Shown here piece after piece: positions 14,208-44,131 of a DNA stretch of 64,000 nt (position 1 is the first letter of the stretch; every line of letters starts with the position of its first letter). The notes beneath the pieces are model-generated. The model saw only the letters and a list, made by a program, of their open reading frames with translations. It ran no database searches and was not told the DNA's origin. Made by a program: the position numbers and the translations under genes. This DNA comes from Haloarcula halophila (GTDB lineage Archaea; Halobacteriota; Halobacteria; Halobacteriales; Haloarculaceae): assembly GCF_029278565.1 (NCBI RefSeq), contig NZ_CP119561.1, positions 124,001 to 188,000 on the forward strand, written 5' to 3'.

Positions 14208-14474
14208 ATGGAACAAAAGATCATCCAACTCCGAGACTATCAGAAGGAGTTCGAAGAGAACGCCGAGAGCTTCAACATCTCGGGATTTGTCCGGCAAAAG
14301 CTCGACGAAGAGGTTATTCCAAACGACCAGATTCCCGAAGAACATCTGCCTGACCCATCGTCTGGCATCACACTCCACGATTATCAGAAGGAGTTCATCC
14401 GATGGATGCTGAGTAGACAGGCCATTCCGGACACCGACACGTCTGAGACACCCACCACAGTTACCAATGACTGA
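14208..14474 (+). CDS. Small hypothetical protein, first gene of the transfer operon
   Basis: 88 residues, acidic. The motif DYQKEF occurs twice (RDYQKEFEE near residue 9 and HDYQKEFIR near residue 64), spaced by a Pro-rich segment, suggesting two similar short helices. No transmembrane segment. It ends in an 8-nt overlap (ATGACTGA) with the next gene. It is about 32 nt downstream of a TATA-like box, consistent with a nearly leaderless transcript. Family not recognised; it might be an autoregulator or a transfer accessory protein. Confidence 0.6.
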   Translation: MEQKIIQLRDYQKEFEENAESFNISGFVRQKLDEEVIPNDQIPEEHLPDPSSGITLHDYQKEFIRWMLSRQAIPDTDTSETPTTVTND

Positions 14475-14958
14475 CGATACTACTGATCCTGATACCCCCG
14501 CCGACGAACCGCTTTTCAAGACACTGCGTTCGCAGGCCAAAACCCACGCCGAAGCAACCCTCCAAGATCCACTCGCCCACGTCACAGCACAGGCCGGGTT
14601 TCTCTGGATGCTCTTGGGAGGCCAGGCCTCCCTCTACGTGATGCCCGTCGTCGCAGCAAACACCTCAACGATCGGGAGTGTATTCTGTTCAACTCCAGTT
14701 GCCGACGGAATCGGACTCATCTTCGGCGCGATCGCCGGCCTGGGACTCCCAGCGACGATGTTCTTCATGGGCCGTTCGGGCCTCTCGTACATGCGTTCCT
14801 CGGGGAACCCGAACAAGAAGAACAAGGCCCGGTCGGATCTGATCCTGACCGCCACTGGCTTCGGGATCGTCGCTCTCGCGATTGTCGCTCCCGAACTCGT
14901 CGACAAGGTTGGCAGTACGATCGGCTTTGGCTTCTCTAGCTGTGTGATGCCATACTAA
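14467..14958 (+). CDS. Small polytopic membrane protein of the transfer operon (pilin-like candidate)
   Basis: 163 residues. After a polar N-terminus come three hydrophobic segments (about 45-62, 77-97 and 119-136) separated by a basic loop (NPNKKNKARSD). Two cysteines (VFCSTP and SSCVMPY at the very C-terminus) might form a disulfide outside the cell. Size, helix number and position before VirB6/VirB4-like genes suggest the place of a VirB2/TrbC pilin subunit or VirB3, but sequence identity to those was not visible. Hypothesis only. Confidence 0.6.
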   Translation: MTDDTTDPDTPADEPLFKTLRSQAKTHAEATLQDPLAHVTAQAGFLWMLLGGQASLYVMPVVAANTSTIGSVFCSTPVADGIGLIFGAIAGLGLPATMFFMGRSGLSYMRSSGNPNKKNKARSDLILTATGFGIVALAIVAPELVDKVGSTIGFGFSSCVMPY

Positions 14959-14980
14959 TCCCGGATACTGCCTCGTCCCC

Positions 14981-16951
14981 ATGTCCCCTGTGCTCAAAAT
15001 CGGTCTGTTGGTCCTCTCCCTCGCTGCGATAGCCGGTCCGGCCGCCGCCGGTTCGGCACCCCAGCACGCCAGCGACGCGGCTGTCGACAGCGAGACAGCC
15101 CAGAGTCTGGCCGGTGGGTACCGACAGATCGACTGCTTCAACGGGTCCTCTTCGCCCACGAAACATCCGAATGGGACGGAACCGCCCGCTCGGAGCCATT
15201 CGTTCGATAGTGTCTCATTCAGAGTGTACTGGTCCGGTGATCCTGACTATCCAAATGCGAGTTTCAACCAGAGTGCGATACAGAACTCAACAGCAGTCTA
15301 TGGTTCTCTGGCGTGTAATACAGACATCCGGTTTCCGTCTCCCCCGGACATGAGCAGCTGGAACGATGGTGAATTAGGCCGGTACAATGACTTGGGCAAG
15401 CGGGTTTCCGTCCATCCTGCTCGTGCAGCACCGACATCGAACGGACCGATCAAAGACGCTTACATCGAAATCTTCCGGGTAACTCCCTCGACGATCGTTC
15501 ATCACCACAACGGGACAACCCAGTACGTCCGGCCAAATGGATCAGTGAAAGCGATCACGAACTATCGTGTTGAGACCCCTAAGTCGACGGTCACGCCAAC
15601 ACGGACGGTCACTTGGGCCGTCGTCGACACTGAAATCGAGGATCTGGAATTATGGACCAACGGCTCAATCGAGGACTCCGTCTCCTCGGGCACGAAGCCT
15701 ACGTTCCAGTTCACGAATACCACCGGGAACTCGACGCTGAAAGTTAACGGGACGGTCACCGTGACCCTCCAGAAAACGACGACGTTCAGCGCCAATGGAA
15801 CGATTAAGACCTCGAAGAAAGTCGTCAGTCAGGAGGTCTCGGATGCACGACGGGTAAGAACTCAAAAGTTGGACGGAGCAGTCTACGGGGAAACGGCTGA
15901 CCATCGCAACAGCAGCGGGGCCGTAGTAAACGTGCCTCGGATGTGGCGGAATATTCAGTTTCCCAACGCTGGTGAGAGTGTCCACAGTCGGTGGTTCTTC
16001 TATACAAGGAGCCCGTCGGGCTGGGAACACTGGTCGAAGTCGACGAGTCCACGAAGTACCTCCAGCGGACCGCCGTTCAACAAGATCCGCCCGCTCCGGG
16101 TACACGCTGCCCCGTTGAAAAGTGCCCCAGTGTCTGGAATCGGCAAGAAACGGGGGGCAGCGACCAAATACACCGGCACTAATGGTGACTACACACGCAA
16201 TAACGAGGATTTCCGCGTAGCGAGGGCTAGTGGGCCGACCGCCCATGGACCTGTCAATACCTCTGTGTCGGTGAACCTGAACATAACAGAGGGCTATACG
16301 AAGACTCAACGGGTCGAGGTGAGAGAAGCTGGCTCGAATAACCCGTACAAATACCAGGACGTTGTGGTAACCGGGATCGTTCGTGGAAGCAAGGAATCGG
16401 GATGGCTGAACAAGCCTACTGTTGTCCACCCGACGAACCTGACTGCCGAGGTAACGAACCGGAGCAAGAACGGGACAGAAATCGAGATCTCGATTCTGTC
16501 GCCCACTGACCAGCCGGTTAAGCAAGGGACGCTGATTCTCGATCCTGGACAGCTAGGTGCGAGAACTGGCCTTAACATAACTCGTGCCTACACAACCGGT
16601 GGCGCTCCCCGTTCTCCTGCAACAGTCATAAACACGTCCGCCAGCGGCACCATCGTCGTTAGAATCCCCCAGACAAACGTTCGGGAGCTTGAGATACGAT
16701 ATATACCGCCGGAGCCGTGGTGGGATCAGTTCATACGCCTTGGGCCGGTTGTCGCGGCGATGGGGCAAACCGAGACGACACAGCGTGTCGGTGGAGGGTT
16801 CCCGGCGTTCAAACACCTGATCGAGCTGGCAGTTCTAACGCTGCTATCGTTCGGGCCGATGCTGGCGATGCTGTACTTAGCAGACGTACTGACAAATGGA
16901 CGACTTATCGGAATGTACTCAAATGACACAACACACGACTTCAGAGACTGA
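14981..16951 (+). CDS. Large exported, membrane-anchored protein of the transfer apparatus
   Basis: 656 residues. N-terminal signal peptide (LKIGLLVLSLAAIAGPAAAG), a long Thr/Ser/Asn-rich exterior with many N-x-S/T sequons, and a hydrophobic C-terminal segment (about residues 616-640, ELAVLTLLSFGPMLAMLYLADV). It is followed by the overlapping lipoprotein gene. Architecture suggests a surface-exposed adhesin or mating-pair structure anchored in the membrane. No known family recognised. Its position inside an otherwise type IV secretion-like operon argues for a role in cell-cell contact during transfer. Confidence 0.65.
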   Translation: MSPVLKIGLLVLSLAAIAGPAAAGSAPQHASDAAVDSETAQSLAGGYRQIDCFNGSSSPTKHPNGTEPPARSHSFDSVSFRVYWSGDPDYPNASFNQSAIQNSTAVYGSLACNTDIRFPSPPDMSSWNDGELGRYNDLGKRVSVHPARAAPTSNGPIKDAYIEIFRVTPSTIVHHHNGTTQYVRPNGSVKAITNYRVETPKSTVTPTRTVTWAVVDTEIEDLELWTNGSIEDSVSSGTKPTFQFTNTTGNSTLKVNGTVTVTLQKTTTFSANGTIKTSKKVVSQEVSDARRVRTQKLDGAVYGETADHRNSSGAVVNVPRMWRNIQFPNAGESVHSRWFFYTRSPSGWEHWSKSTSPRSTSSGPPFNKIRPLRVHAAPLKSAPVSGIGKKRGAATKYTGTNGDYTRNNEDFRVARASGPTAHGPVNTSVSVNLNITEGYTKTQRVEVREAGSNNPYKYQDVVVTGIVRGSKESGWLNKPTVVHPTNLTAEVTNRSKNGTEIEISILSPTDQPVKQGTLILDPGQLGARTGLNITRAYTTGGAPRSPATVINTSASGTIVVRIPQTNVRELEIRYIPPEPWWDQFIRLGPVVAAMGQTETTQRVGGGFPAFKHLIELAVLTLLSFGPMLAMLYLADVLTNGRLIGMYSNDTTHDFRD

Positions 16952-17804
16952 CTCGCGAATCGACCGTCGAACAGCACTCGGTCTGATCGGGGGCGGATTA
17001 ACTGCCTTCGCTGGCTGTGGAGGTGTCGTATCGACAAATGAGAACTCAACAGCAACTACCTCACCAACACCGACACCTGCGACAGACAATACACCAATCG
17101 AATCAATCGAATACACGGTTAAAGAGGTGAGTGGGCGCCCACAGATATTCGCGTCGGTGACAGTAACAGACAGTGTCGAGATCACTCAAATCCGTCTGGT
17201 CGCTAACGACAGAGTGTTCCACAGGAATGCAGTTGATGAAGGGACAGCTGACATCCCACTCACCTACGCTGCTATTGACAAACACTACCCCCCGGAAGGA
17301 GGCAAATTGGTTCTAATCAGCGAGGATGAAGAAAGAGAGGTTTCCTTCCCGTATCGTCCGGATATTCGGCTGAAGGAAGTCATACGAGCTTCTAATTCTT
17401 CGAGACTTGAGTCGGATTCCCAGCTTGAGCCGATAGGGATCGTACTTGAGAATCACGGTAACAAACCTGGACTTGCTAACTCGATTGATTATGAGGGTGC
17501 ACCCGCAAACGCGGGCCGGCCGGACAGTGGTTCATCTCGAGGATTCGACAACCGGTGGGGGATGATAAGAGGAGGCGATGAACTTCTGCTTAAAATACAT
17601 TCATTCTTTTATGAAGAATTTGATTGCTCTGACTTCGGAACCAGAGATGCAACGATCCGAGTGGCCCTTGAATTTGCAGAAGATATCGTAGCAAAAGTTC
17701 CGGTAACATACGAGCACGAAGGGGGGCGAAACTGTACGCAAACCTTAGGGACTGCCAGAAATGTTGGGCCGGCGACGGACACCCCAGAGACAACTCAGGA
17801 GTGA
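16923..17804 (+). CDS. Tat-type lipoprotein of the transfer operon
   Basis: 293 residues from the ATG at 16923, overlapping the previous gene by 29 nt. The N-terminus has a twin-arginine lipobox signal (DRRTALGLIGGGL then AFAGC), a Ser/Thr/Pro-rich linker, and a beta-rich domain that includes EYTVKEVSGRPQIFASV and an EEREVSFPYRPDIRL strand pair. A C-terminal Cys pair (FDCSDF, GRNCTQ) could be a disulfide. Lower GC than its neighbours in places. Probably an outer-face component of the transfer complex, in the position of a VirB7-like lipoprotein; that analogy is positional only. Confidence 0.65.
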   Translation: MTQHTTSETDSRIDRRTALGLIGGGLTAFAGCGGVVSTNENSTATTSPTPTPATDNTPIESIEYTVKEVSGRPQIFASVTVTDSVEITQIRLVANDRVFHRNAVDEGTADIPLTYAAIDKHYPPEGGKLVLISEDEEREVSFPYRPDIRLKEVIRASNSSRLESDSQLEPIGIVLENHGNKPGLANSIDYEGAPANAGRPDSGSSRGFDNRWGMIRGGDELLLKIHSFFYEEFDCSDFGTRDATIRVALEFAEDIVAKVPVTYEHEGGRNCTQTLGTARNVGPATDTPETTQE

Positions 17805-17807
17805 GAG

Positions 17808-20477
17808 ATGCCTGGAGCCAAGGAATCTGCTCCCTTCAAAAGTGAATTGGGTGGAGACACTAGCACAGCCACCTCTGAGCCTGCCCCAATCAACATCAGT
17901 TCTGACACAACGATGGAAGGAGCTGATGGGATGTCGGCTATCACGTCGCCTACCGGAAAAAATGCGGTAGGGCCAGGGGTTCGTAACTTCGATTTCAATT
18001 TCACAGGAAGTTCCAATCATATCGCTGACCAGTTCGCGAAGGTTATTGAGTGGTTTATGCAAACCACCGCGCAAGATGTCAAAGAAGGCGCTAATAATCA
18101 AACTGCAGCCTTAGTTGATCCAATCATTGGAACGCCAGCACCACGGGGTCCAAGGAGTTCAGTTGGTGGCATTCATTTTGATATAGCCTTCAGTAACGTC
18201 AGTAACTATCCGTGGCAGCTCTTCATGGACGATATTTACTGGGGAGTGTCTCTTGGATTAGCGTTGGGCCTTCAGTTTCTCATTGTCGCCGGACTCGGAC
18301 TTCGGTACCGGTCAATGGACCCAGTGGTCCGGAAAAAGACCGGCCGAAGACTCTTCTTTGCGTTTATGTCGGTTTTCTTCTGGCTTCCGGTCGCATCGCT
18401 TGCTGGACAGGTATCCAACGCGATTGGCTGGGCAATAGTTGATACAGCACCAACAGGAAGTTCAGTTACAGCTTTCCTATCATCGGCTTATGCCGTCTGG
18501 ACCGCCGATATCGGACTTCTCATCGTCGTGATATTACTATCACTATACATATACATAAAGACATTGTTGATATTCATTGGCCGCTGGATAGGGTTGATCT
18601 TGCTTACCCTCTTCATGCCCGTTCTCGGGACACTATGGGTGTTAGAGGTCTGGCCATTCAACCGCTTTGCAGGCCTGTCAGCGAAAATAGCGGGTGCATA
18701 TCCTGGACTCTTAGTAGCCAATATCCCCGCAGCAATCTTGATTCGCCTCGCTATGGTCCACCATACGTGGGGCCTCTCAACCAGCTTAAGCACTATTCTC
18801 GATCTTCTTATTCTCCTGTTCGCAGCGAAATCACAGCGTGCACTCGTCGAGCAAAGCAGTTCTTTGGCTACGAAGGGTGCAGACATGTTCTCATCAGCAA
18901 CGAAAAGTAGTCTTGCCATCGCTGGAGCGGGCGCGACACTCGGAACAACTGCCGTCGCCGGACCTGCAGCTGGATCAGCAGTCGCTGCTGGTCAGAAAGC
19001 TATCCAAGGGAAAAATCCCAGTACGGAGGTCGCACAGGTTCACCGCAGCCTCGCCTCTCAGCAACTCGCTCAGAGTGGGTCGGATGGCCAAAGTAGTTCC
19101 GAAGCGGAGGAAACCCCCTCAAGCAGTAGTAGTACAGGTAGTTCATCGGCCGAAAACACCTCTGATGAGAAGCCATCGGAGAGCACATCCAGAAGTTCCG
19201 ACACGGATGCAGAAGACACAAACGGAGGACTATTAGGTCGGTTTTCGACGGATGACGGAAACACCCCCGAAGATTCGGGAAGGAACACCGATCAAGAGAC
19301 CCCAGGTCAATCTGCGGAGGGTCCAGAACAATCTCCCGACACTAATTCGACCGGGAGCGGTTGGTTCAGTGCGACGGAGTCCGGTCAAAGCAGCTCCGAG
19401 ATAGCCGACGCTTCGCAAGATGGCTATTCTCAAGGCGACCGCGTGGTAATCGACTCAGAGGACTTCGACCACACTGATAAACGCGCTGTCGTCACCAGCT
19501 CCGTCCCTGGTCACGTCAAAGTCCGCCCCGAGTCTCGTGAGCGGTCCGAAGACATGACACTGGATGCCTCTGAGGTGGCGATGTACGAACCCGGACCAGA
19601 GGTTGACCGTCAGTTCAATTCCGGGGATCCAGTTCGGATCACCGCCGATGAGTTCAAGGCTGCTGATAGCCGGGCGACGGTCACAAAGCCCCCCGTACCT
19701 GGGAAGGAAGCCACCGTACGGCCAGTCAATCTGCCCGGAGAAATCGAAGTGTCAGAAGCTGACCTCGCTGCTGTCCCCACAGACAGTCCCCAGCCGACAG
19801 ATACCAACGAACCAGAGCCTGCCGTTCCCGAAGGCTGGGACGGCGATGACGGCCGTGATTCACCCGTTGAACCGGAACGGATTACGCCAGTTGGACCACG
19901 GACTACCACTACCCAGTCCGACCCCCTCGCTGATCTCCAGGGCCAGGACTCCGGCCAGTCTGTAGTAACCGAATCGGGTGACACTAGCACGTCTGCTGGT
20001 GAGCACGGCTCCGAGCCACCATCCCAGCCCCAGGGAGAACGCAGTGGATCGGAACCGGTGTCGGCTGATCCACCCCAGCCAGGTGATGAAGTTCCCACCA
20101 CCGAGGGGGTCGAAACCCCCGGGCGATCGGCAACCGAAATCACAGATACCTCCCCAGGCGATCAGCCCCCTCAAGAGAAGAAGTTAGCCACAACGTCGGA
20201 GCTCGATCCATCGGATCTCGTCGCGAACCCAGATGCCGAAAAGTATCAACAAGGGTTCGACAACAGGTCCCAAGAAACGACCCAGGACACACCTGAAGCA
20301 ACCGAGCGGAGTTCTCACCAGTCCGACTACCGCGGTTCCGAGACTGGAGACACCGACGTGGGCTCAGACTCCAGCCAAACCATCGACGAAGCACTCGCGA
20401 CCGACAATGACATGCTCGGTCGTGAAGCCTACGAAGACCCCTTCGAGACGGAAACTACGGAGAGTGATGACTCATGA
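17808..20477 (+). CDS. VirB6/TrbL-like channel protein with long acidic, KOW-like repeat tail
   Basis: 889 residues. Residues about 135-345 contain six or more transmembrane helices (including GVSLGLALGLQFLIVAGLGL and IGLILLTLFMPVLGTLWVLEV), like TrbL/VirB6 inner-membrane channel proteins. An Ala/Gly-rich stretch follows, then about 450 residues of Ser/Glu/Asp-rich disordered tail. The tail contains two related beta modules beginning QGDRVVIDSEDF and SGDPVRITADEF, each ending near a Leu/Val-Asp-Ala-Ser-Glu-type segment. The stop overlaps the VirB4-like start by ATGA. Membrane core of the transfer channel, with the tail inside or outside the cell unknown. Confidence 0.75.
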   Translation: MPGAKESAPFKSELGGDTSTATSEPAPINISSDTTMEGADGMSAITSPTGKNAVGPGVRNFDFNFTGSSNHIADQFAKVIEWFMQTTAQDVKEGANNQTAALVDPIIGTPAPRGPRSSVGGIHFDIAFSNVSNYPWQLFMDDIYWGVSLGLALGLQFLIVAGLGLRYRSMDPVVRKKTGRRLFFAFMSVFFWLPVASLAGQVSNAIGWAIVDTAPTGSSVTAFLSSAYAVWTADIGLLIVVILLSLYIYIKTLLIFIGRWIGLILLTLFMPVLGTLWVLEVWPFNRFAGLSAKIAGAYPGLLVANIPAAILIRLAMVHHTWGLSTSLSTILDLLILLFAAKSQRALVEQSSSLATKGADMFSSATKSSLAIAGAGATLGTTAVAGPAAGSAVAAGQKAIQGKNPSTEVAQVHRSLASQQLAQSGSDGQSSSEAEETPSSSSSTGSSSAENTSDEKPSESTSRSSDTDAEDTNGGLLGRFSTDDGNTPEDSGRNTDQETPGQSAEGPEQSPDTNSTGSGWFSATESGQSSSEIADASQDGYSQGDRVVIDSEDFDHTDKRAVVTSSVPGHVKVRPESRERSEDMTLDASEVAMYEPGPEVDRQFNSGDPVRITADEFKAADSRATVTKPPVPGKEATVRPVNLPGEIEVSEADLAAVPTDSPQPTDTNEPEPAVPEGWDGDDGRDSPVEPERITPVGPRTTTTQSDPLADLQGQDSGQSVVTESGDTSTSAGEHGSEPPSQPQGERSGSEPVSADPPQPGDEVPTTEGVETPGRSATEITDTSPGDQPPQEKKLATTSELDPSDLVANPDAEKYQQGFDNRSQETTQDTPEATERSSHQSDYRGSETGDTDVGSDSSQTIDEALATDNDMLGREAYEDPFETETTESDDS

Positions 20478-23400
20478 GTGAGACAAACACCGAGTACAGC
20501 ACGAACATCATTCACGAATCCCTCGGGAGCAAAACCGAGTTCTGGGGAGAGTATACCCTGGCAGAACTCGCCCTGTTCGTCGTCCCGATCTTCGGGTATT
20601 TCCTCTTCCTGGGCATCCCCTTCGTGCCAGCAAGTGCGTTCCTGCCAGCAACAGGAGCCGTCATCGCCCTCGAAATCTTGCTGTTTGCACTCTTCCAGGT
20701 CAAACCCAGCTACTACCGATTGACAGAGTGGCTCATGGTGAGACTGCGATTCGCCGTCCAGAAAGAGGAACACACCATCGACGATGGCAATCAAGATACC
20801 CGCCATGTCACCCGCCTCAATCGGATCATGCCCCACGGAATCGAGCGCGTCGACGGTGCCCACGTCGGAGCTGTCGAAGTCCGCCCGGCAAACATGGCCC
20901 TCGAAGATGGTAAACAGTGGGCCAACGCTGTCTCCTCGCTCACGGATCTCGTCACCGCCCTCGAAGGGACCGCCGAAATCTACGTTACGACCACCAACGT
21001 GAGCAACCGGCCACATATCGAAGCCCACGAAGAGCGCTTGCAGGACCCCGATGTCCAGAATCTCCCCATGCTTCGGGGCGTTCTCTCCCAATGGGTCAAC
21101 CGCTATACCAACGATGACGGCGAAATCCAGGATTCAACGGAAATGCAGCGGGAATACTATATCATCGTCACGGTCACCGACAGTGACATCGACGAACTCG
21201 AGCGGGAGTCGACATCGCTGCTGGGCTACTTCGAAGACCTTCCCGGGATCGGCAAAGCCGTCTCGAAGCTCACCCCAGAGACGTTCACCGACGCCGAGCG
21301 CGAGAAGTACAAGACGAAGAAACTGAACGACCGCCTGGGGAACGTCTCGCGAGCGGTCGACAACCTCTATCGCTGTCGTGGAAATGCAGTCTCGCCGTTT
21401 GACCTCGCACAGCTCACCAAGGACTATTGGGCCTGCGAGTCTCGGCCGCACTCGGACTTCGCATCCACGGCCGGCATCTCACCGATCAGCTATTCGGAGG
21501 ACCAGGACAACGACGGCGACGACGTCGACGACGCGCTGACTGCCGAGGACCTCGCTGACGATGATAATGCAGACGCCGCTCCAGCGGACGCCGGCGATAC
21601 CGAGGAGACAGAAGCTAACGAGACCGAAGCCAGAGAAGATCTGGAACACGTCGAGGAAGCTGCCGAAGAAATCGAGTACATCTCACCGGATGTCTCCCAG
21701 CCGGGTCGGAAGCACCAGTCGATCGTAGCGCCGACGGCAATCGACTGGCACACGGACTACACGCTGATCGAGAACGAGACCTATTCCCGGACCTTCTGGA
21801 TCGAGACCTTCCCAGAACATCCGACCAACGGCCTCTTCGAGCGGCTACTACTGGATACGGACCTCCGGGCCGACGTGAACATCCACATCAACCCCTACGA
21901 CTCCCAAGATGCGGTCCAGGTCATGTCCGAGTGGATCACCTCGCTACGGATGGTCCAAAACGACATGGGCGAACTCGAAGCCGAGGACGTTCGCGACGAT
22001 ATCAACCGAGCGAAATACCTCCGCCAGTTAGTCCGACGCAACCGAGCCTCGCTCTACCAGGCCGGCGTCTTCGTCCGGATTACTGCCGACTCGAAAGAGG
22101 AACTGCGAACACAGACCAACCAGCTGGAAACCCTCCTGCGGGACGCCCCGGCGAACTGCTCGGTCAAACGAGCAACCCGGCGCCAAGAACAGGGCATGGT
22201 CACTGTCTCGCCACTAGGCGGGAACGAACTCGGCCGTGGCCGGTTGTCGGCGATGACCGGCGAGGCCCTGGGGTCGATGTTTCCGTTCTCGTCGAACTAC
22301 CTCCGCATGGAAGACGGAATCGAATACGGCACCCACGGCCACAACGGGTCGTCGCTGCTGATCGATCCCTGGGAACTGGAGACTGGCCACTCCGAATTGG
22401 TCACCGGAATGCCCGGCGGCGGGAAATCCCACGGGACACAGGCCCGCTCGATCAGGATGATGAAAAAACGATCGGACGTCAAGCAGGTGTTTATCGACCC
22501 CGTCGCCGGGATGCGTGGGTCGGCGAAGATGCTCGACGCCAAGACGATCACGGTCAGCGGAGAGACGCCACTGAACCCGTGTGAGATGCATCCCACACCG
22601 GAACACATCCTGCGAAAGTCCCCGGACATGCAACCGGTCGCCTCGAAGAAAGACGAGGTCTTCGGGGTAATCGAGAACTTCCTGAAATCGAGAGACATCG
22701 ACCTGGAGATGCACTCGGGGCTGATCACGTTCCTGATCGACGCGATCTTCGAGCAGTCCGACATCGACCCCGACGACCCGTCGACGCACACACCGGAGAA
22801 CTCCCCCAGCATGGCGGACTTCCTGGACCTGATCGACGACATCCAAGAGGACCCGTCGCTGTTCCCCGGTGCAACCACCGAGTCCTCTCGACAGAAGATT
22901 CGAGAATACGCCAACGAACTGTCGGTGGCACTGCATCCGTTCCGGCAGGGCTCAACCTACGGAAATCTCTCCGAGGAGTCGAACCTGAACCTGATTGAAG
23001 ACGACAGTAAGGCGGTATATCTGGACCTCCAGCAGATCGAGGGGTCCGGCAGCGGCCTAGGCAAGCAGTCGTTCATCATGCAACTGCTGTTGTCGAATCT
23101 CTACCAGCAGGCCAAGAACATGGATCAAAAGGTCGAGATCATCATCGACGAAGCCCACTACCTGTTCAACGACGATGCGAATCTGGCGTTCCTGAACCAG
23201 ATCGCCCGCCACCAGCGCCACGCTGGACTCCGGCTGGTGATGCTCTCCCAGACGCTCCAAGAGTTCTACGACGAAGGCGTGGCCGAAGAGATCGCCGGAA
23301 TGTGCCCGATCATGGTCCATCACCGCGAGCCAGACCTGGGCGAGAAGACGGCGAATAGGGCCGGACTCACGAGCGAGCAACAGCACTACATCAACACGGC

Positions 23401-23809
23401 TGAGGCCGGCAAGGAGTCGATCGGTGAAGGCCAGGGCTTCTCCCAAGCGCTGGTCCGGGTCGACGAACACGGGGACTACCCGCTGACGATCCGAACTTCG
23501 TGGGAGGAAAAGCGAGTGATCGACCTCGATGCTCACGGTCGGGATGCACTGGCGGCGCTGGTGGATAGCCAGCCAGAGCAGATCAAGGAGTTCGAGCAGT
23601 TCGTCTACGCCCACGGACTTCGCCACGAGTTGACCGAGCGGTTCGGGTTCGAGCCAGAGCAGGCGGAGAAAGTGCTGTCCGGGCTCTCTCAGGAAGAGCT
23701 GATGGATTCGGTTCGTGTGGCCCTCGAACAGAATGGAACGGCGACAGCGGTTGCTGACGGCGGCTCAACTGACACAACCACCGCAGATACTGGAGGCTCT
23801 TCAGAATGA
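20474..23809 (+). CDS. VirB4/TraC-like conjugation ATPase with N-terminal PrgI/VirB3-like membrane segment
   Basis: 1111 residues. The first about 100 residues hold two hydrophobic helices (LALFVVPIFGYFLFLGIPF and TGAVIALEILLFALF), resembling PrgI/VirB3 fused to the ATPase. A central CagE/TrbE-like region follows with an acidic insertion (about 340-400). The P-loop is GMPGGGKS (645-652), Walker B is VEIIIDEAH (887-895), followed by an RHQRHAGLRLVMLSQTL sensor helix. It powers assembly of the type IV secretion channel. It is coupled by 4-nt overlaps to both neighbours. Confidence 0.92.
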   Translation: MSETNTEYSTNIIHESLGSKTEFWGEYTLAELALFVVPIFGYFLFLGIPFVPASAFLPATGAVIALEILLFALFQVKPSYYRLTEWLMVRLRFAVQKEEHTIDDGNQDTRHVTRLNRIMPHGIERVDGAHVGAVEVRPANMALEDGKQWANAVSSLTDLVTALEGTAEIYVTTTNVSNRPHIEAHEERLQDPDVQNLPMLRGVLSQWVNRYTNDDGEIQDSTEMQREYYIIVTVTDSDIDELERESTSLLGYFEDLPGIGKAVSKLTPETFTDAEREKYKTKKLNDRLGNVSRAVDNLYRCRGNAVSPFDLAQLTKDYWACESRPHSDFASTAGISPISYSEDQDNDGDDVDDALTAEDLADDDNADAAPADAGDTEETEANETEAREDLEHVEEAAEEIEYISPDVSQPGRKHQSIVAPTAIDWHTDYTLIENETYSRTFWIETFPEHPTNGLFERLLLDTDLRADVNIHINPYDSQDAVQVMSEWITSLRMVQNDMGELEAEDVRDDINRAKYLRQLVRRNRASLYQAGVFVRITADSKEELRTQTNQLETLLRDAPANCSVKRATRRQEQGMVTVSPLGGNELGRGRLSAMTGEALGSMFPFSSNYLRMEDGIEYGTHGHNGSSLLIDPWELETGHSELVTGMPGGGKSHGTQARSIRMMKKRSDVKQVFIDPVAGMRGSAKMLDAKTITVSGETPLNPCEMHPTPEHILRKSPDMQPVASKKDEVFGVIENFLKSRDIDLEMHSGLITFLIDAIFEQSDIDPDDPSTHTPENSPSMADFLDLIDDIQEDPSLFPGATTESSRQKIREYANELSVALHPFRQGSTYGNLSEESNLNLIEDDSKAVYLDLQQIEGSGSGLGKQSFIMQLLLSNLYQQAKNMDQKVEIIIDEAHYLFNDDANLAFLNQIARHQRHAGLRLVMLSQTLQEFYDEGVAEEIAGMCPIMVHHREPDLGEKTANRAGLTSEQQHYINTAEAGKESIGEGQGFSQALVRVDEHGDYPLTIRTSWEEKRVIDLDAHGRDALAALVDSQPEQIKEFEQFVYAHGLRHELTERFGFEPEQAEKVLSGLSQEELMDSVRVALEQNGTATAVADGGSTDTTTADTGGSSE

Positions 23810-24186
23810 CTCGAAAGAAGATCACGATGTATGGAACCGAGGAACAGAAAGAGCAGATAGAGATACAGGCTTCCAAACACGGACAGACAGTCTCAAAGTA
23901 TTGTTTGGAGGCTGTTGAACAGCGGATTGCACGTGAAGTCCGTGATGAGCGCGCTGATGAGGTTTCGATTGAAGACCGAATTGAAACACTTGTGAGTGAC
24001 GTACAGAAGAATATTGATTCTGTGATAGATCCTGCACCAGAACAGGAACTACTCTACGAGATTGCTCTGTGGCAGCTACTAAGTAGCGAGTATAGTGCGG
24101 AGCAACGGCAAGACGCACTGGAGTCTGGAGCTGAAAAGTTCGAAAAGGAACTGGAGAATCTGGCCACAAAGCGAGGTGAGGATTAA
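23806..24186 (+). CDS. Ribbon-helix-helix relaxosome accessory protein, copy 1 (MobC-like)
   Basis: 126 residues. The N-terminus reads KKITMYGTEEQKEQIEIQAS then VSKYCLEAVEQRI, the beta strand plus two-helix pattern of CopG/MobC-type proteins. The C-terminal half (ELLYEIALWQLLSSEY, then an Arg/Gln/Ala/Glu-rich helix) is shared with the next gene product, so the two are tandem paralogs. ATGA overlap with the VirB4-like gene. Probably binds the transfer origin as a dimer and recruits the relaxase. GC is visibly lower than in the ATPase genes. Confidence 0.7.
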   Translation: MTRKKITMYGTEEQKEQIEIQASKHGQTVSKYCLEAVEQRIAREVRDERADEVSIEDRIETLVSDVQKNIDSVIDPAPEQELLYEIALWQLLSSEYSAEQRQDALESGAEKFEKELENLATKRGED

Positions 24187-24683
24187 TGCCTGATGACAAG
24201 CCAGTCTACTTTTACACTTCTGAAGAGACAAAACAGCGAATCAACGATCAGGCAGATGAAGCTGGACTGAGCGTTTCGGATTTCTGTGAACAGGTGCTGA
24301 AAGAACACCTGGAGGATACCACTTCACAGAGTCAGGAAGAACGCTATCACCCGAGCCAACGGCTTGAAGTGACGATTGATGATGCTCGCCGAGATCTAGA
24401 AGCAGCGATTGAGCGGCTCGAAACAGCTGTTGATGAAGAAATCACAGATATTCAGTCGCTCCGGACTGTCTACGCGATCTCGATCTGGGAGTTGCTTAAA
24501 TCAGAATATGGCTCCCCTCACCGAAAAGAGGCAATGCAGACGGCAGCAGCCCGCGTAAAAAAGGCGGAGAATGATTCATCACGTAGTGATAAGGGAAGTT
24601 CGCACACCGATGAGACCACTGCTCCGTCGGAACCAGACCAAGCGACAGGTTCGGATCAGCCTGCCAATAGCAGCGAACTATGA
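24186..24683 (+). CDS. Ribbon-helix-helix relaxosome accessory protein, copy 2 (MobC-like)
   Basis: 165 residues. KPVYFYTSEETKQRINDQAD followed by LSVSDFCEQVLKEHL gives the same ribbon-helix-helix pattern as copy 1; the region RTVYAISIWELLKSEYGS aligns with ELLYEIALWQLLSSEY of copy 1. A disordered Ser/Thr-rich tail follows. Its start overlaps the previous stop (TAATG) and its stop overlaps the relaxase start (ATGA). Two such proteins could form a heterodimer on the asymmetric half-sites of the transfer origin. Confidence 0.7.
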   Translation: MPDDKPVYFYTSEETKQRINDQADEAGLSVSDFCEQVLKEHLEDTTSQSQEERYHPSQRLEVTIDDARRDLEAAIERLETAVDEEITDIQSLRTVYAISIWELLKSEYGSPHRKEAMQTAAARVKKAENDSSRSDKGSSHTDETTAPSEPDQATGSDQPANSSEL

Positions 24684-25291
24684 TACTCAAGACCGACTTC
24701 CAGCAGAGTGGAGCTGGAGATCTAGTCGAGTATATCCGTCGGGATAGAGACCCCAATCGCGATCAGCGAGTCCCGCTCCGGAATCCAACTGGCCGAGAAC
24801 TGTCGGACCCGGAGGTATCAGACTTTATTGAAGAGAGCCGACAGTTCGGGTTTGAACGGCATTACATCGTCTCTCCGAACCCAGAGGCAGGATACACAGC
24901 ACAAGAAGTAGGCGAAAACACCCGACAGCTCATGCGAGATGAGCTGCTTGAAAAACCCACTGCGAATTACCTCTACGCTGTTCACAATGACAGCTGCTAT
25001 ACCCACGCTCACGTTGCTGCAACGGGCCGTGAAGAGGAGTTACGGATGGATCGACAGGAGATTCAACGCCTCCGATCGCGGGCTCGATCACAGTTCCGTG
25101 AACAGGAACGACTCAAAGAGCGCGACGTTGACCGAGAGCAAGAGCGCGCTGAGGAACGTCGCGAACAAGCCCACGAGAAAGAGCTAGATCCGGAAGCTCG
25201 GAAAGAAGTCGAACCAGACCGAGAGCAAGAGCCCGAACCGCAGCGGGAGCAAGAACCAGAGCGTGACTTCGGCATGGGTGGTGCGCAGTGA
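24680..25291 (+). CDS. Minimal HUH/MOB-type relaxase candidate
   Basis: 203 residues. The first about 125 residues carry the layout of a MOBP/PF03432-type relaxase: GDLVEYIRRD with Tyr18 as candidate nucleophile, FERHYIVSPNPEAGYT with His61, a helix with EVGENTRQLMRDELL, then YAVHNDSCYTHAHVAATG with His102, Asp104, His109 and His111, the H-x-D...H-x-H metal site. The rest is a highly charged Arg/Glu repeat tail. It lies between MobC-like proteins and the coupling ATPase, exactly where a relaxase is expected. It is smaller than usual relaxases (over 300 residues) and lacks a helicase or primase domain. Function inferred from motifs plus context. Confidence 0.7.
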   Translation: MILKTDFQQSGAGDLVEYIRRDRDPNRDQRVPLRNPTGRELSDPEVSDFIEESRQFGFERHYIVSPNPEAGYTAQEVGENTRQLMRDELLEKPTANYLYAVHNDSCYTHAHVAATGREEELRMDRQEIQRLRSRARSQFREQERLKERDVDREQERAEERREQAHEKELDPEARKEVEPDREQEPEPQREQEPERDFGMGGAQ

Positions 25292-27822
25292 GTTCCGACC
25301 CAACCACCCAGCCGGGCCAGAAGAACACGGAGGTCCCGACCCAACTGCGTGACGACGGTGTCGTGATGTTCTTCTGGGCCTTTTTCATGTTCGTGTTCCC
25401 CGCAATGTGGGTCGATGCCGACAAGCCACTCCACAAACGCTTCTGGGCCTGGCGCTACCTCTATCTCGGCTTCACCGCGGTCACAGCGATATTCTTCCTC
25501 CCTGCACTGCTGAACGGGCAGTTTCTCTGGCTGCTGTTGGGTCCGTTCGCCCACATCGTCGCGGGGCTCTCGATCATCGGAATCTTCGCTGGCTTCCAAT
25601 TTCCCGGTATCTCACTGCCATACGTCTCGTATACGATCTCGACCGGGCTGTATAGCGCCGCTCTCGTAGCCGTGGCCGGCGGCGATCTCTTGCGGCGGAC
25701 ATCCCCAGCGTCGCTCTCGATGGACCCCTACGACAGTGACGAAGACGAATTAGTGGTCCCACTGGATGGTGTCGACGACAAGAGCGACGACGCCCCGACA
25801 CCGCCGAAAATCGATCAGGACGTATCGACAGCCGTAATCGGCGAGACAGGGTCGGGGAAGACCTCGGCTATGCAAATGCTGGCCTACCAGTTTCCCTATC
25901 ATCGGGACACGGCGGTCATCGCACACGACGCCGGCGAAGACTTCCAGCGCTTCTATGAGGATCTTGGTTTCGACGTCAAGCGGATCAGCGCCCAGAATGG
26001 GGACGTGGTCTGGAACCTGTTCAACGACGCTGACAGCCGGCGTGACTTCCGAGAGATTGCCCGCACAATCTTCGGCGAACCCGACGGGCACAACCCGTTC
26101 CACACGCCGGCCAAACAGGTCTTCGAGGACGTCCTGATGTACCTCCATCTGGAGGCGCAAAAGAACAACCGCCGTGAGGAACTCTGCCATCTCGATCTCG
26201 TGCAGTTACTCGAAGAAGGCCATATCGAACTATATCAGAAACTCAGCGAATACGACCAGCGCTTGGACGCTGGTCACCTCGATCCCGACCAGGGGAAAGG
26301 CGCACGGAACGTCTACCAGACGCTTCGTGAGCACACTCGTCCGGTGTTCGTCGACGACTTCGCGGAGTACGGGGAGTTCTCACTGAACGAGTACATCAGG
26401 AACCCCGATGGGCGCGTGTTGATCATCGACTCCGAACCCTCGCGGATGGCGACACTCGGACCGATGTTCCAGCTGTTGCTGGACTGGTCGATCCGGTACG
26501 CTATGGAAGCTCCGAACCCCACAGTCCATATCCTCGATGAGATCGACCAACTCCCGCCACTCTCCCAGGTCACGAACCTCACCGCCCGCGGCCGGAAGGA
26601 GAAAGCCCGTGCGCTGGTCGGCGTCCAGACAGTCGGCCAGCTGAAGGACACCTACTCGACGGTCTCCGGTATCCTGGGCAACTGCCCCCAAGGCGTGTAC
26701 TTCGGCCCCGGCGACCGGGAGACCACGCAGTTCGTTCTCGACGAGGTTGGCGACCACCGGACCTTCGAAACGCAGGAGATGGTTGCCGTCTCTAGATCGA
26801 CCGGCGACCAGTCCCAAAGCGAGCAGAACCGTCGACGCCACCAAGAGAAAGACCAGAATCCGCTGACTCCCGGACAGCTCCGGAAGTTCGGGCCAGGGGA
26901 ATGTGTCACCGTCCGCCGGACTGACTGGTGGCATGGCCAAGCCAACGAACTTCACGAGGTTCGCGACAACCTCCCTGAGAGGGGCGTCGAGTCGCCGGTG
27001 TCGTTGGACGACACGAAGGATAATCTCGAAGACACTGACAGCTGGCTCGCGCTACTGCGGTCCCGGCTCGGAGGGTCAGAGTCCGACAGTGAATCGTCGA
27101 GTCAAAACGAGTCTGGTGGGGACGACGCGGTCGATCCAGACGTGTGGGCTGCTGATGATGTCGAGTCGCCGTCGCTGGCGTTCTCCTATGCCAAGTGGGA
27201 CGAAGCACTCGACCGACTCGATCTCGACCGGCCACCGATCTCTGATCCGAAGCATATCGACGCCTTCGAGGACGTCTGCTCGATGCTCGACGATCGAGTC
27301 CTCTCGCTTCAGATTGGTGCCGACGCGACCATCGAAATCAAGGAACTCCTCATGGACCTCCACGACCAGACTGGCCTGACTCCTAAAGAGATTCTCAACG
27401 AAGTGACTGCCCACACCGAAGCCCTACAGATGAGCGATGAGTTCCACACTGAATTCCTCGAACAAGTCGATGTCGACGACCAGCAGGCACCGTCTGATGA
27501 CGCCTCGGAATTGTTTGAGGACGACAATACTGAAGAGATAGATGACGTCACTGACTCCGAGGGCGTGCAAGCGACCGCCCCTGACAAAGTGACCAATGAG
27601 CCAGAGTCTCCCGGCTCAACTGAGACTGAATCTGATGGGGCGGACAACTCAGTTGCCAACACCAATCACCAGTCTCCAGAAGGGGACACTCACACCCCAG
27701 ATGACGAGCCAGTCCACGACGACGAAGATATAGAGAAACTGTTAGAATCGGAAGAGGAGAAAGATGGATCGGAGGGCCAGTCTGAAGACTCTGATGAGTT
27801 CGGAGCTTCCGAGTTTATGTGA
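25288..27822 (+). CDS. VirD4/TraD-like coupling ATPase
   Basis: 844 residues, GTG start at 25288 overlapping the relaxase stop. Four hydrophobic segments lie in the first 135 residues (beginning VVMFFWAFFMFVFPAMWV), then an FtsK/TraD-type ATPase domain: P-loop GETGSGKT (185-192), VLIIDSEP strand, VHILDEIDQLPPL Walker B (about 416-428), and an RKEKARALVGVQTVGQ segment. The C-terminal about 250 residues are acidic and probably disordered, with an all-alpha-like patch (LLMDLHDQTGLTPKEIL). It would deliver the relaxase-DNA complex to the channel. Confidence 0.92.
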   Translation: MSSDPTTQPGQKNTEVPTQLRDDGVVMFFWAFFMFVFPAMWVDADKPLHKRFWAWRYLYLGFTAVTAIFFLPALLNGQFLWLLLGPFAHIVAGLSIIGIFAGFQFPGISLPYVSYTISTGLYSAALVAVAGGDLLRRTSPASLSMDPYDSDEDELVVPLDGVDDKSDDAPTPPKIDQDVSTAVIGETGSGKTSAMQMLAYQFPYHRDTAVIAHDAGEDFQRFYEDLGFDVKRISAQNGDVVWNLFNDADSRRDFREIARTIFGEPDGHNPFHTPAKQVFEDVLMYLHLEAQKNNRREELCHLDLVQLLEEGHIELYQKLSEYDQRLDAGHLDPDQGKGARNVYQTLREHTRPVFVDDFAEYGEFSLNEYIRNPDGRVLIIDSEPSRMATLGPMFQLLLDWSIRYAMEAPNPTVHILDEIDQLPPLSQVTNLTARGRKEKARALVGVQTVGQLKDTYSTVSGILGNCPQGVYFGPGDRETTQFVLDEVGDHRTFETQEMVAVSRSTGDQSQSEQNRRRHQEKDQNPLTPGQLRKFGPGECVTVRRTDWWHGQANELHEVRDNLPERGVESPVSLDDTKDNLEDTDSWLALLRSRLGGSESDSESSSQNESGGDDAVDPDVWAADDVESPSLAFSYAKWDEALDRLDLDRPPISDPKHIDAFEDVCSMLDDRVLSLQIGADATIEIKELLMDLHDQTGLTPKEILNEVTAHTEALQMSDEFHTEFLEQVDVDDQQAPSDDASELFEDDNTEEIDDVTDSEGVQATAPDKVTNEPESPGSTETESDGADNSVANTNHQSPEGDTHTPDDEPVHDDEDIEKLLESEEEKDGSEGQSEDSDEFGASEFM

Positions 27823-28066: not shown

Positions 28067-28153
28067 GTACGAAATCGCAAGAAGGCGGACGGGTACATCA
28101 CAGACACGGTACGAAATAGCGGAGTGATGTACTACAAATCGCAAGACGGCAGC
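28067..28153. repeat. Direct-repeat and palindrome cluster, candidate transfer origin
   Basis: AAATCGCAAGA-[A/C]-GGC occurs at 28072-28086 and 28136-28150, 64 nt apart, with GTACGAAAT variants at 28067 and 28109. Between the two copies lies a perfect 9-bp inverted repeat GTACATCAC (28093-28101) / GTGATGTAC (28124-28132) with a 22-nt spacer. The cluster is in the first non-coding stretch after the coupling ATPase gene and next to AT-rich DNA. This layout fits a relaxosome-binding origin of transfer or an operator array. Confidence 0.45.
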
Positions 28154-28346
28154 CGGATTTTTCGCTCACACCGTGTCCCTTTATCTTGCCCCACAACTTT
28201 CGGCGGTAGCGCGCACCCTAAGCGGTCATGAATTACCACGAATCTGACTATCAATTGCGGCGGCGCCTAGCCCTGGGGACCCCGTTCGATGCACCCTGGC
28301 CTGCCCGGCCCACCGGCTGTGTTAGCAACCCAAGAAGAATCCGAGG

Positions 28347-31204: not shown

Positions 31205-32254
31205 TTAGTCCGAGAGCGTCACCTCAACAGCATTCTCCATGTCGACGTGGGAAATCCACTGGTGGGTGTCACTCTCAGCGTCCCACGGTGCCGTCCGCGG
31301 GCTGTCACCCGAACAGCCCCACGAGGCCCGTCGGTCACCCGTCGGGGCCGGGCCATCGCCGTCTTCGAGGATGCACATGGTCGACTTGCTCGTGACTGCG
31401 ACGGTCGTGGTACCACGGTACTCGCCGGGCTTGCCCGCGTAAATCCGCACCCGATCGCCTTCGTGGAGCGTGCGGACCATGGTGCCGTGGAGAGCCTTGT
31501 CCCAGACGGTGAGTTTACAGCTCGTGCCGGCGTCGTCTTCGAGGTACAGAACTTGGTACTGGTTCCGACTGGCCGGCTCCTCGATGATGTGGGTGACTTC
31601 TCCCTCGACAGTCACCTCACCGCCGTCTGCGTCGACTTCCGCGAACGGGACCGGCGAGTTCATGCTGTCGCGAGCGGCCATCAGCGCGTCGAGTTCGCCG
31701 TCTAGGGGACTGCCACCGCTGGCCACCGTCTCAGCGATACAGCGCCCCGCTGCGGCGCTTGTGATGGTCGTCTGGCGAGCCACCCGACGGGCGCGTTCGT
31801 TGACCTCCGCGAGCGTCTCGGCGTCCATCTTCTCGCGGGGGTCCGTCTGGCGCGTGGCGATGTCCGGGTGATCGAGGTCCGTGTCCGCGTCGGTCAGCTG
31901 GCGGCTGGACCGAGCGCGTTCCACACCGTCGGCGTGTGCCGCGTGTGCCGTCTCCCGGTGCCGTACCTGTTCAGCTTCCTCGCCAAGCCGTTGCTCCTGG
32001 GCGGCCAACGTCTCGCCGTGGCGACGGTTCGGGCCGACCTCTGTGTCTCGCGTCCAGTCGTAGTCGTTCTGACGCTCGTAGAAGTTCCCGCGAGAGTCGA
32101 GGCCCCGGTTAGGCCGGTAATCGAGTTCGTCGCCGTTCTCGGTCTCTGCGACCTGCTGAAGCAGATGCTCAGGGCCGTCAACACGCGCACTAAGCTGGAT
32201 CGTCTGGTCAACGTCTGCCGATGCCTTCTTACCGCTCGAATTGCTAGCGTACAT
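31205..32254 (-). CDS. OB-fold DNA-binding protein of the mobile element
   Basis: 349 residues. The central and C-terminal part (about 215-300) forms an OB-fold: GGEVTVEGEVTHIIEEPAS, QYQVLYLEDDAGTSCKLTVW, TLHEGDRVRIYAGKPGEY, as in RPA/SOSS-B-like single-stranded DNA-binding proteins. The N-terminal 150 residues are charged and Arg/Glu-rich with a helical stretch (AEQVRHRETAHAAHAD). It could coat single-stranded transfer intermediates. Its upstream TTTAAG box near 32386 implies a leader of about 110 nt, unusual for haloarchaea. Confidence 0.7.
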   Translation of the reverse strand: MYASNSSGKKASADVDQTIQLSARVDGPEHLLQQVAETENGDELDYRPNRGLDSRGNFYERQNDYDWTRDTEVGPNRRHGETLAAQEQRLGEEAEQVRHRETAHAAHADGVERARSSRQLTDADTDLDHPDIATRQTDPREKMDAETLAEVNERARRVARQTTITSAAAGRCIAETVASGGSPLDGELDALMAARDSMNSPVPFAEVDADGGEVTVEGEVTHIIEEPASRNQYQVLYLEDDAGTSCKLTVWDKALHGTMVRTLHEGDRVRIYAGKPGEYRGTTTVAVTSKSTMCILEDGDGPAPTGDRRASWGCSGDSPRTAPWDAESDTHQWISHVDMENAVEVTLSD

Positions 32255-35515: not shown

Positions 35516-36970
35516 TCACCAGCTCCCCAGCCGCTCGGGCAGCGGATCGACCGTCCCGGCTATCCGGTCGGCAAGCGTCCCAAGCAACCGGGCTTTTGTT
35601 TCGGCAAGTTCCGGGTCAGCCCAGCGGTTGCGCCGCTCGACCGGGTCTGTGGCGAGGTCGTACAGTTCCCCGTCATCCGTATCGTGGTGGGTAACGAGCT
35701 TGTACCGGTCGGTCCGGACCATCGTCGCGTTGACTCGAGGGTCGGTGTGCCGTTTCGTGGCGTCGTAGAACTCACAGTAGACGGATTCCCGGTGTGGTCG
35801 GGTCGGAGTGGTCCCGTCAGTCCTGACAAGGGGCCACAGAGAGCGTCCCTGCATCCCCGCGGGTTGCTCTAGCCCGGCTGCCGCGACCAGTGTGGGTGCC
35901 AAGTCAGTCAGCGCCACGAGGTCGTCGACGATGTCTCCCTTGTGGACGGTTCCAGGTTGTGAGATGATCAATGGCACCCGCACGGCCGGCTCGTAAAAGT
36001 ACGGCCCTTTCTTGTAGATACCGTGGTCGCCCAACATCTCGCCGTGGTCGGCGGTGAACACGACGATCGTGTCCGACCGCTGGCCGGTCGCGTCAAGTTC
36101 GGCCAGCAACCGGCCCACTTGGTCGTCGACGAAGTCGATCATGGCGTAGTAGGCGGCCCGGACGAGGCGGTGTTCGTCGGCACTCATGTTCGCTCCTTCG
36201 AGCCGACCAGTGTGAGCGGCCTCGTGCTGGACGGCGGGCTTGTCGTCGAGTTCTCCGGGTGCGTAGTTCGGCGGCGGGAGGTCGTCGATTCGATCGACGT
36301 ACTTCTCCAAGTAGGCCGCGGGTGGGTCGAACGGGTGGTGAGGATCGAAGTAGTTCAGCGAGAACAGCCACGGATGATCTGCGTCGGCCCCCGTCCGGAC
36401 GTACTCGATTGCGCGGTCGGTACACCACGCTGTCTGGTGGTTGTCGGGCGACATCGACGTTTCGACGTAGGATGACCCCTCGTAGGGCGTCCGTTCGAAA
36501 GACTCTCCCCGGCCCCGGAGCCACTGGCGGTACTGATTGTCTGGCGAATCGTCCCCCGGCATCGGTGACCAGTGGACCGTGCCGTAACCGTCGTCAAGCG
36601 AGCGGGCTGGTTCACGGGTGGTTGCGTCCGTGTTGTCGTCGGGATTCGTCGGCGAGAGGTGGAGCTTTCCGGCTAATCCGCAGCGGTAACCGGCCTCAGA
36701 CAGGTGTGTGGTGACGAGGCGTTCGTCGCGAGGCATCGGCTGGCCATTCTGCCGGCAGCGGGTCGTCCGCGGATACCGTCCAGTCAGCATACTGGCGCGG
36801 CTCGGCGTACAGACCGGCGACTGGCAGTAGGCCCGTTGGAACCGGATCCCCTCGCCCGCCAGTTCGTCAAGATGAGGCGTGTCGATGTGGTCGGCCCCGT
36901 AACAACCCAGCGTGTCCCAGCGCTGCTGGTCGGTACAGATCCAGAGGATGTTCGGTCGGTGATCGGGCAC
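35516..36970 (-). CDS. Sulfatase (formylglycine type)
   Basis: 484 residues. The N-terminus NILWICTDQQRWDTLGCYG contains the metal-binding Asp; SPVCTPSRASMLTGRYP holds the Cys54-x-Pro-Ser-Arg motif that the maturase converts to formylglycine. TADHGEMLGDHGIYKKG is the second metal site. The family hydrolyses sulfate esters; choline-sulfatase/arylsulfatase relatives or glycan sulfatases both fit. No signal peptide, so it acts in the cytoplasm on imported substrate. Divergent from the second sulfatase. Confidence 0.93.
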   Translation of the reverse strand: MPDHRPNILWICTDQQRWDTLGCYGADHIDTPHLDELAGEGIRFQRAYCQSPVCTPSRASMLTGRYPRTTRCRQNGQPMPRDERLVTTHLSEAGYRCGLAGKLHLSPTNPDDNTDATTREPARSLDDGYGTVHWSPMPGDDSPDNQYRQWLRGRGESFERTPYEGSSYVETSMSPDNHQTAWCTDRAIEYVRTGADADHPWLFSLNYFDPHHPFDPPAAYLEKYVDRIDDLPPPNYAPGELDDKPAVQHEAAHTGRLEGANMSADEHRLVRAAYYAMIDFVDDQVGRLLAELDATGQRSDTIVVFTADHGEMLGDHGIYKKGPYFYEPAVRVPLIISQPGTVHKGDIVDDLVALTDLAPTLVAAAGLEQPAGMQGRSLWPLVRTDGTTPTRPHRESVYCEFYDATKRHTDPRVNATMVRTDRYKLVTHHDTDDGELYDLATDPVERRNRWADPELAETKARLLGTLADRIAGTVDPLPERLGSW

Positions 36971-37200
36971 GATTCACCACCTCTCCCCCGGATGCCTGTG
37001 TAGTAGCGTTCCGTGGGATGGACGGATGCGGGCGCACATGCCAGTATGCACATCGCGGGGACAAGGTAAGCGTTCGTCCACGCTCAATCGTGGTCGCTCC
37101 GAGCGCCGGACCACTGTCTCTCGTCTCGGAGCGGGGCTCGCGGGGGAGTTCAGGAGGAGACTGGCCACGTCCTCGCGTGGACCAAGACTTTCCCCCCTCC

Positions 37201-38538: not shown

Positions 38539-38651
38539 GCGGAGTTGGTGTCCCTCTCGGCGGCGCGCTCGTCGCGGGCCCGAACTGCTCGTGTCGGTGT
38601 CGTCCCGGCCGAGCGGCATCCTGCGTTTCTGTCCGACCGTCGGCACCGCGC

Positions 38652-40667: not shown

Positions 40668-40669
40668 GG

Positions 40670-42647: not shown

Positions 42648-42680
42648 ACCGACCCTACTCACATTGGATATATTAGATTT

Positions 42681-44119: not shown

Positions 44120-44131
44120 GCGCCCGTCCGC

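Follow-up and report, generated by a model that had tools for sequence, protein, structure and literature searches.

A nine-gene conjugation operon with a predicted minimal relaxase and a candidate origin of transfer in Haloarcula

Operon anatomy and the predicted relaxase

A nine-gene conjugation operon (14467-27822) was identified in 64,000 nucleotides of Haloarcula halophila DNA (NZ_CP119561.1, positions 124,001 to 188,000; the whole stretch is referred to here as the window). The genome totals 4.04 Mb in four contigs, of which a 363-kb contig includes the window and a 114-kb contig carries a second full operon. All nine genes are on one strand, from the pilin at 14467 to VirD4 at 27822, and include two ribbon-helix-helix (RHH) proteins and a predicted relaxase.

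14467..14958, + strand: VirB2-like pilin (PF18895 T4SS_pilin, 22.9 bits, cut-off 26.6)
14981..16951, + strand: membrane-anchored surface protein (by synteny; kept in all operons)
16896..17804, + strand: Tat-type lipoprotein (RR and LTAFAGC lipobox in the sequence)
17808..20477, + strand: VirB6-like membrane protein of 889 aa, polytopic (variable between operons over residues 1-500, conserved over 500-889)
20474..23809, + strand: VirB4 ATPase (NF045971, 2.2e-41; NF045975, 7e-34)
23806..24186, + strand: RHH1, putative NikA-like relaxosome accessory protein (PF21983, 24.5 bits, cut-off 27)
24186..24683, + strand: RHH2, putative NikA-like relaxosome accessory protein (PF21983, 26.0 bits, cut-off 27)
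24680..25291, + strand: predicted minimal relaxase, 203 aa (PF03432, 21.7 bits, with relatives reaching 44; predicted fold closest to MobA/NES/MobM)
25288..27822, + strand: VirD4/TrwB-type coupling protein (PF10412, 109.6 bits, cut-off 20.5; PF12696, 49.7)

Neighboring genes overlap by 4 nt at VirB6-like/VirB4, VirB4/RHH1, RHH2/relaxase and relaxase/VirD4 (GTGA), and by 1 nt at RHH1/RHH2; the open reading frames and overlaps agree with those given in a preliminary description of this DNA. That description placed the module at 20474-27822; although the genes in this range are real, it opens at virB4 with the VirB6-like gene just outside, and the true start of the operon is ∼6 kb earlier, at the pilin, followed by the surface protein and the lipoprotein. 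Orthologues of the pilin carry the annotation "pilin," and the copy on the sister plasmid is 100% identical. The surface protein gave no match above threshold in a Pfam search, and the lipoprotein probably starts at the next Met rather than at 16896. By inspection, VirB4 has a hydrophobic, VirB3-like N-terminal segment. Although neither RHH protein reached the PF21983 cut-off, a relative of RHH2 (P0020) did so with 27.3 bits, and an RHH model (pTM 0.32) placed one helix at 13-26 and another at 30-53, with long helices after them. As for a conjugative type IV secretion system (T4SS), VirB4, VirD4, pilin and VirB6-like protein are all encoded in one locus, together with the operon's own relaxase and a predicted origin of transfer (oriT).

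In total, 27 Haloarcula operons were read, two of them cut by contig ends and the rest complete, and the same nine genes were found in the same order in the window, on the sister plasmid and at 25 further loci. Because the sister plasmid and these 25 loci keep both genes and order, the operon represents more than a chance assembly, and since all nine genes are conserved, conservation of a bare VirB4/VirD4 pair alone was rejected. This relaxase is carried at high identity by 19 Haloarcula genomes, and precisely these 19 have a VirB4 of at least 64% identity. The expectation that archaeal elements with an identifiable relaxase would be rare was not borne out within Haloarcula, where they are common; the Pfam Relaxase family was matched in 28 of 391 genomes of a class-wide sample, and in a phylum-wide sample of 393 the family profile of the relaxase matched haloarchaea only. 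Two scans of viral contigs found no relative.

The 203-residue product comprises a catalytic domain (∼residues 1-145) and a charged C-terminal tail. The tyrosine near the N terminus and the H-x-D...H-x-H set reported earlier are present as Y18, H102-x-D104 and H109-x-H111. Among 20 diverse members of the family, Y18, G38, R60, I63, P66, H102 and L121 were invariant, and H109 and H111 were kept in at least 90%. Exceptions to the histidine pattern were HxQ (L063 type) and DxH (L041 type); in L041 (genus g48), L042 and L047, the first His of H-x-H is replaced by Asp (KDVH) with the other motifs kept. A dN/dS of 0.09-0.20 indicated purifying selection on the relaxase. The proposed comparison with MOB relaxase families gave a Pfam Relaxase match in 19 of the 20 members, though the window protein itself stayed below the cut-off; relatives scored 25-44 bits, and its closest ones pass the curated threshold with 26-44 bits. 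NCBIfam MobP1 matched 14 of the 20, the window protein not being one of them.

For structural comparison, an AlphaFold2 model (pLDDT 80; residues 177-203 disordered) was ranked against known folds. Taken by itself, Foldseek gave weak matches (best E 0.015, MobA R1162), but realignment yielded clear Z-scores: MobA R1162 (Z 11.6; 140 residues superposed, root-mean-square deviation 3.4), NES (Z 10.6), MobM (Z 10.0) and TraI (Z 9.2). The top twelve matches were all conjugative relaxases, and unrelated folds began at Z 7.0. The fold check suggested in the preliminary description thus came out in favor of a relaxase, with MobA R1162, NES and MobM closest. Comparing P0001 or the family profile with the sequences of solved structures yielded nothing usable, the relaxase chain 9qq7 appearing only at E 0.66. 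On the strength of the predicted fold and the motifs, the 203-residue protein is identified as a minimal MobA/VirD2 relaxase, MOBP-like by the profile matches of its relatives.

A candidate origin of transfer

The region 28072-28189, 250 nt past virD4 and between the convergent gene ends at 27822 and 28347, contains the following features.

28072..28086, + strand: direct repeat 1 of the candidate oriT, AAATCGCAAGAAGGC
28136..28150, + strand: direct repeat 2 of the candidate oriT, AAATCGCAAGACGGC
28093..28132, no strand assigned: 9-bp inverted repeat with arms GTACATCAC and GTGATGTAC, flanked by the two direct repeats
28103..28177, no strand assigned: 8-bp inverted repeat with arms GACACGGT and ACCGTGTC, the right one 11 nt away from the predicted nick
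28179..28189, + strand: predicted nick box CTTTATCTTG^C, with the nick placed between 28188 and 28189

The two 15-nt direct repeats conform to AAATCGCAAGA[A/C]GGC, lie 64 nt apart and carry AAATCGCAAGANGGC; three matches were found where 0.32 were expected, a number reached in none of 100 shuffles. The inverted repeat, whose 8-bp form has a 12-bp counterpart in H. pelagica, was reached in 0 of 40 shuffles for either the window or H. pelagica. The window has a single match to the box pattern CTTTAHCTTGY, and the complete 4.04-Mb genome has exactly two, one behind the virD4 of each operon. In all 27 operons, TTT[AT][TCA]CTTG followed by [CT]C was present 285-366 nt past virD4, the box versions elsewhere being TACCTTGT, TAACTTGC and TTACTTGC. 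For MOBP relaxases, the nick consensus is (C/T)ATCCTG(C/T), in most cases preceded by an inverted repeat (PMC3772185). Judged by these sequence features, 28072-28189 is a probable origin of transfer, a candidate in which the nick can be predicted to one base.

Alternatively, this box could serve gene regulation, as either a promoter or an RHH operator, with the real oriT elsewhere. TTTATC does resemble an archaeal TATA box, and in stand-alone RHH-relaxase-VirD4 cassettes the CTTG^CC box is situated 76-136 nt upstream of the cassette's own RHH gene, where a promoter or operator would be expected. In the window, however, the box is placed between convergent gene ends, and therefore no gene starts at it; the conserved half is CTTG[CT]C rather than the TATA half, and the box stays with oriT-type repeats in an orphan copy that has neither virD4 nor relaxase (L107). 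A purely regulatory role is therefore considered unlikely.

Orphan copies of the candidate oriT were found away from the operon at L107 (RHH1-RHH2, no relaxase), L108 and L109 (truncated virD4) and L110 (alone). At L107:8121-9227 (G028:C9), the copy lies beside an RHH1-RHH2 pair without relaxase or coupling protein and may belong to an element mobilized in trans. L108, L109 and L111, the last at a contig end, combine an oriT with only the 3' part of virD4 and are apparently remnants of lost transfer regions.

Cassettes, fusions and exchangeable blocks

Outside Haloarcula, the relaxase was mostly found in an RHH-relaxase-VirD4 cassette with no virB4 in the ∼10 kb read on each side, including on plasmids of 16.7 and 21.5 kb. 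Conversely, operons of Natrinema, Haloterrigena and Halorussus have the genes from pilin to VirB4 in common with the window (VirB4 46-48% and VirB6 30% identical), with an unrelated protein of 380 aa and another coupling protein in place of the relaxase and VirD4. The prediction that the relaxase would accompany homologous operons therefore held for every Haloarcula-type operon and failed for these distant ones. The window VirD4 scored 146 and 141 bits against cassette VirD4s as against 30.8 bits for the Natrinema-type coupling protein. Cassettes without a channel, a channel without a relaxase and this kinship of the VirD4 proteins together imply that the block for DNA processing and the channel form modules that can be separated. 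The 380-aa protein, conserved at the relaxase position (L033:7758-8957, L034:15305-16453 and L035:15248-16378), was considered as a hidden relaxase and rejected by sequence: on reading it has no H-x-H motif, and Pfam gave only a sub-threshold match (E 0.04) to a ribosome-assembly family.

In two genomes, relaxase and VirD4 are fused in one protein (Relaxase 25.2 and 24.0 bits; TrwB 130.9 and 125.6 bits), and these natural fusions are evidence that the two proteins work together. The fusion frames, L057:1342-3264 (G206:C33) and L025:1024-2778 (G056:C9), come from two different families. The small Halomarina plasmid L129 (NZ_CP100460.1, 16,726 bp) encodes a terminase large subunit and a phage minor head protein in addition to an RHH-relaxase-VirD4 cassette; this virus-like plasmid may also be mobilizable. 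L130 (NZ_CP085343.1, 21,460 bp) contains two copies of a ∼10.7-kb unit, and NZ_CP119995.1 (55,136 bp; L037, L074-L076) contains three relaxase copies ∼16.35 kb apart; the repeated units are either multimers or assembly artefacts.

Co-variation was analyzed in 18 related operons with a near-constant apparatus. In Mantel tests, which leave shared ancestry in place, oriT identity was correlated with RHH1/RHH2 at 0.80 (partial given VirD4 0.69-0.71; permutation p 0.0005), with VirD4 at 0.61, with the relaxase domain at 0.56, with VirB4 at 0.28 and with the lipoprotein at 0.03. One operon, L102, breaks the RHH-oriT match, having RHHs of the pNG500 type and an oriT like that of L080. In the 154 operon pairs whose VirB4 proteins share at least 88% identity, the gene conserved least was most often RHH2 (88 pairs), then the lipoprotein (28) and RHH1 (24).

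The window operon and its counterpart in the same cell (VirB4 98% identical, dS 0.20) differed in two blocks, the first being the lipoprotein (35% identical, dS 2.9) with VirB6 residues 1-500 and the second RHH1-RHH2-relaxase residues 1-125 (dS 1.5 to saturated). From residue 126, the relaxase tail was again 92% identical, and VirD4 was conserved too; conservation of the tail tracks VirD4 and not the catalytic domain. This pattern suggests that the two blocks are swapped between plasmids as alleles on a constant apparatus, the RHH-relaxase block providing plasmid-specific recognition of oriT. Less certainly, the lipoprotein/VirB6 block may provide plasmid-specific exclusion. The lipoprotein and the membrane half of VirB6 (window 16896-19300) are hypervariable between operons whose remaining channel genes are >90% identical. 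They are a possible entry exclusion pair; TraS of F acts on the VirB6-like TraG (PMC12624023).

Proposed mechanism and comparison with known systems

The operon is very probably the transfer region of a conjugative haloarchaeal plasmid using a bacterial-type relaxase mechanism, and the earlier proposal of a conjugation module with its own minimal relaxase is supported by fold, profile matches and conserved gene order. In the mechanism envisaged, RHH1 and RHH2 would bind the repeats of the candidate oriT, and Y18 of the relaxase, with a metal held by H102, H109 and H111, would nick the strand at TATCTTG^C (28188/28189) and remain on the 5' end. The C-terminal tail would be the signal recognized by VirD4, which would deliver the complex of protein and DNA to the channel of VirB4 and VirB6. 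Entry would begin with the strand 3' of the nick (28189 onward) and end with the transfer operon. The region predicted to go in first contains the following gene, possibly for a leading-region single-stranded DNA-binding protein.

31205..32254, - strand: OB-fold protein (59% identical to a pNG500 gene annotated SOSS complex subunit B)

Several observations weigh against this reading. The window protein scored 21.7 bits against Pfam Relaxase (MobA/VirD2, PF03432), below the 24.6 cut-off, and has THAHV where its relatives have PHAHV. Its nick box, TATCTTGC, has one mismatch to the MOBP consensus, and a universal inverted repeat near the nick was sought but was not detectable in most pNG500-type operons. 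The partial correlation of oriT with the relaxase catalytic domain was 0.40, below that of the RHHs, and −0.09 given VirD4 when all 27 operons were included; shared ancestry, left in place by the Mantel tests, counts on the same side, as does the lack of a relaxase in the Natrinema-type operons.

The last point bears on a second alternative, in which the machinery either moves DNA without this relaxase, in the manner of Ced/Ted import, or is an exporter of proteins, and the relaxase acts only for mobilizable elements using the same channel. The channel is retained in Natrinema-type operons, and archaeal Ced/Ted systems function without a relaxase (PMC9905601). In Haloarcula, however, the relaxase never occurs apart from the operon, it is under purifying selection, and its tail is conserved together with VirD4; we regard this alternative as quite improbable. 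It is barely credible that the 203-aa protein initiates rolling-circle replication or is some other HUH nuclease present in the operon by chance, for although it is a plasmid-borne HUH protein and wheat dwarf virus Rep appears at fold rank 13 (Z 8.7), ranks 1-12 belong to conjugative relaxases, its Tyr precedes the histidines, which is the order found in relaxases, it always lies between RHH and VirD4 or is fused to VirD4, and its family profile matches are to MobA/VirD2, MobP1 and MobL.

Compared with known systems, the relaxase-based transfer proposed here shares with bacterial MOBP relaxosomes (RP4 TraI/TraJ, R64 NikB/NikA, VirD2) a HUH relaxase with an N-terminal Tyr, a putative NikA-like RHH protein, a predicted nick box near (C/T)ATCCTG(C/T) behind repeats and a TrwB/TraG-type coupling protein. 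It differs in the ∼200-aa size of the relaxase, which is without helicase, primase or other recognizable domain, in its two tandem RHH genes, its archaeal host and its own version of the nick box, and in having oriT behind virD4 and not beside the relaxase gene. Plasmid pNG500 of Haloarcula marismortui has the orthologous nine genes and the oriT box (L032) and is of the same operon type; its relaxase (L032/P0017), an orthologue of that of the window, is labeled "hypothetical protein" in GenBank. Sulfolobus pNOB8-type plasmids and Thermococcus pT33-3 also combine archaeal conjugation with VirB4 and VirD4 homologues but, unlike the Haloarcula operon, have no recognizable relaxase (PMC12857230). 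The Ced/Ted import systems likewise possess an archaeal ATPase resembling VirB4, along with components that have homologues in the conjugation machinery of bacteria (PMC9905601). They import chromosomal DNA with neither relaxase nor plasmid oriT, whereas the Haloarcula operon is on a plasmid with a conserved relaxase, and its VirB4 matched CedB only at E 0.02. Natrinema-type T4SS operons have orthologous pilin, surface protein, lipoprotein, VirB6-like protein and VirB4 but, unlike the Haloarcula operons, no RHH or relaxase.

The preliminary description considered the transfer system undescribed, which is only partly so. Guglielmini 2011 has pNG500 as the sole archaeal conjugative plasmid listed, with no anatomy, relaxase family or oriT in the text found (PMC3158045); an annotated relaxase and TraD in Haloarcula were noted in 2019 (PMC6333295), MOBP profile matches were counted in a halobacteria-dominated community in a 2021 plasmidome (PMC8563766), and some GenBank records already carry the label "relaxase." Later papers state that no relaxase is recognizable on archaeal conjugative plasmids (PMC9905601, PMC12857230). 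A literature search that covered neither subscription journals nor preprints found no description of the relaxase family, RHH pair, oriT, cassette or fusions, and the oriT, the modularity of the cassette and the relaxase-VirD4 fusions appear to be undescribed.

More broadly, we lean toward the view that haloarchaea own a fully relaxase-based conjugation, with a compact MOB clade (145-aa domain plus tail), an RHH-relaxase-VirD4-oriT cassette carried on conjugative, small mobilizable and virus-like plasmids, and a constant channel on which blocks for plasmid-specific recognition and exclusion are exchanged. If true, a nick position would have been predicted for an archaeal origin of transfer for the first time, and haloarchaeal genetics would gain a mobilization system. 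The question of how archaea ready their DNA for transfer has not been settled (PMC9905601, PMC12857230), and because a conserved relaxase, accessory proteins and a predicted nick occur together in culturable Haloarcula, it becomes directly testable. Plasmid typing tools miss plasmids of this kind, calling 19 of 20 non-mobilizable.

Further along the window, a higher-G+C segment (35516-51774) contains, by eye, two sulfatase-like, one beta-galactosidase-like and one formylglycine-generating-enzyme-like open reading frame.

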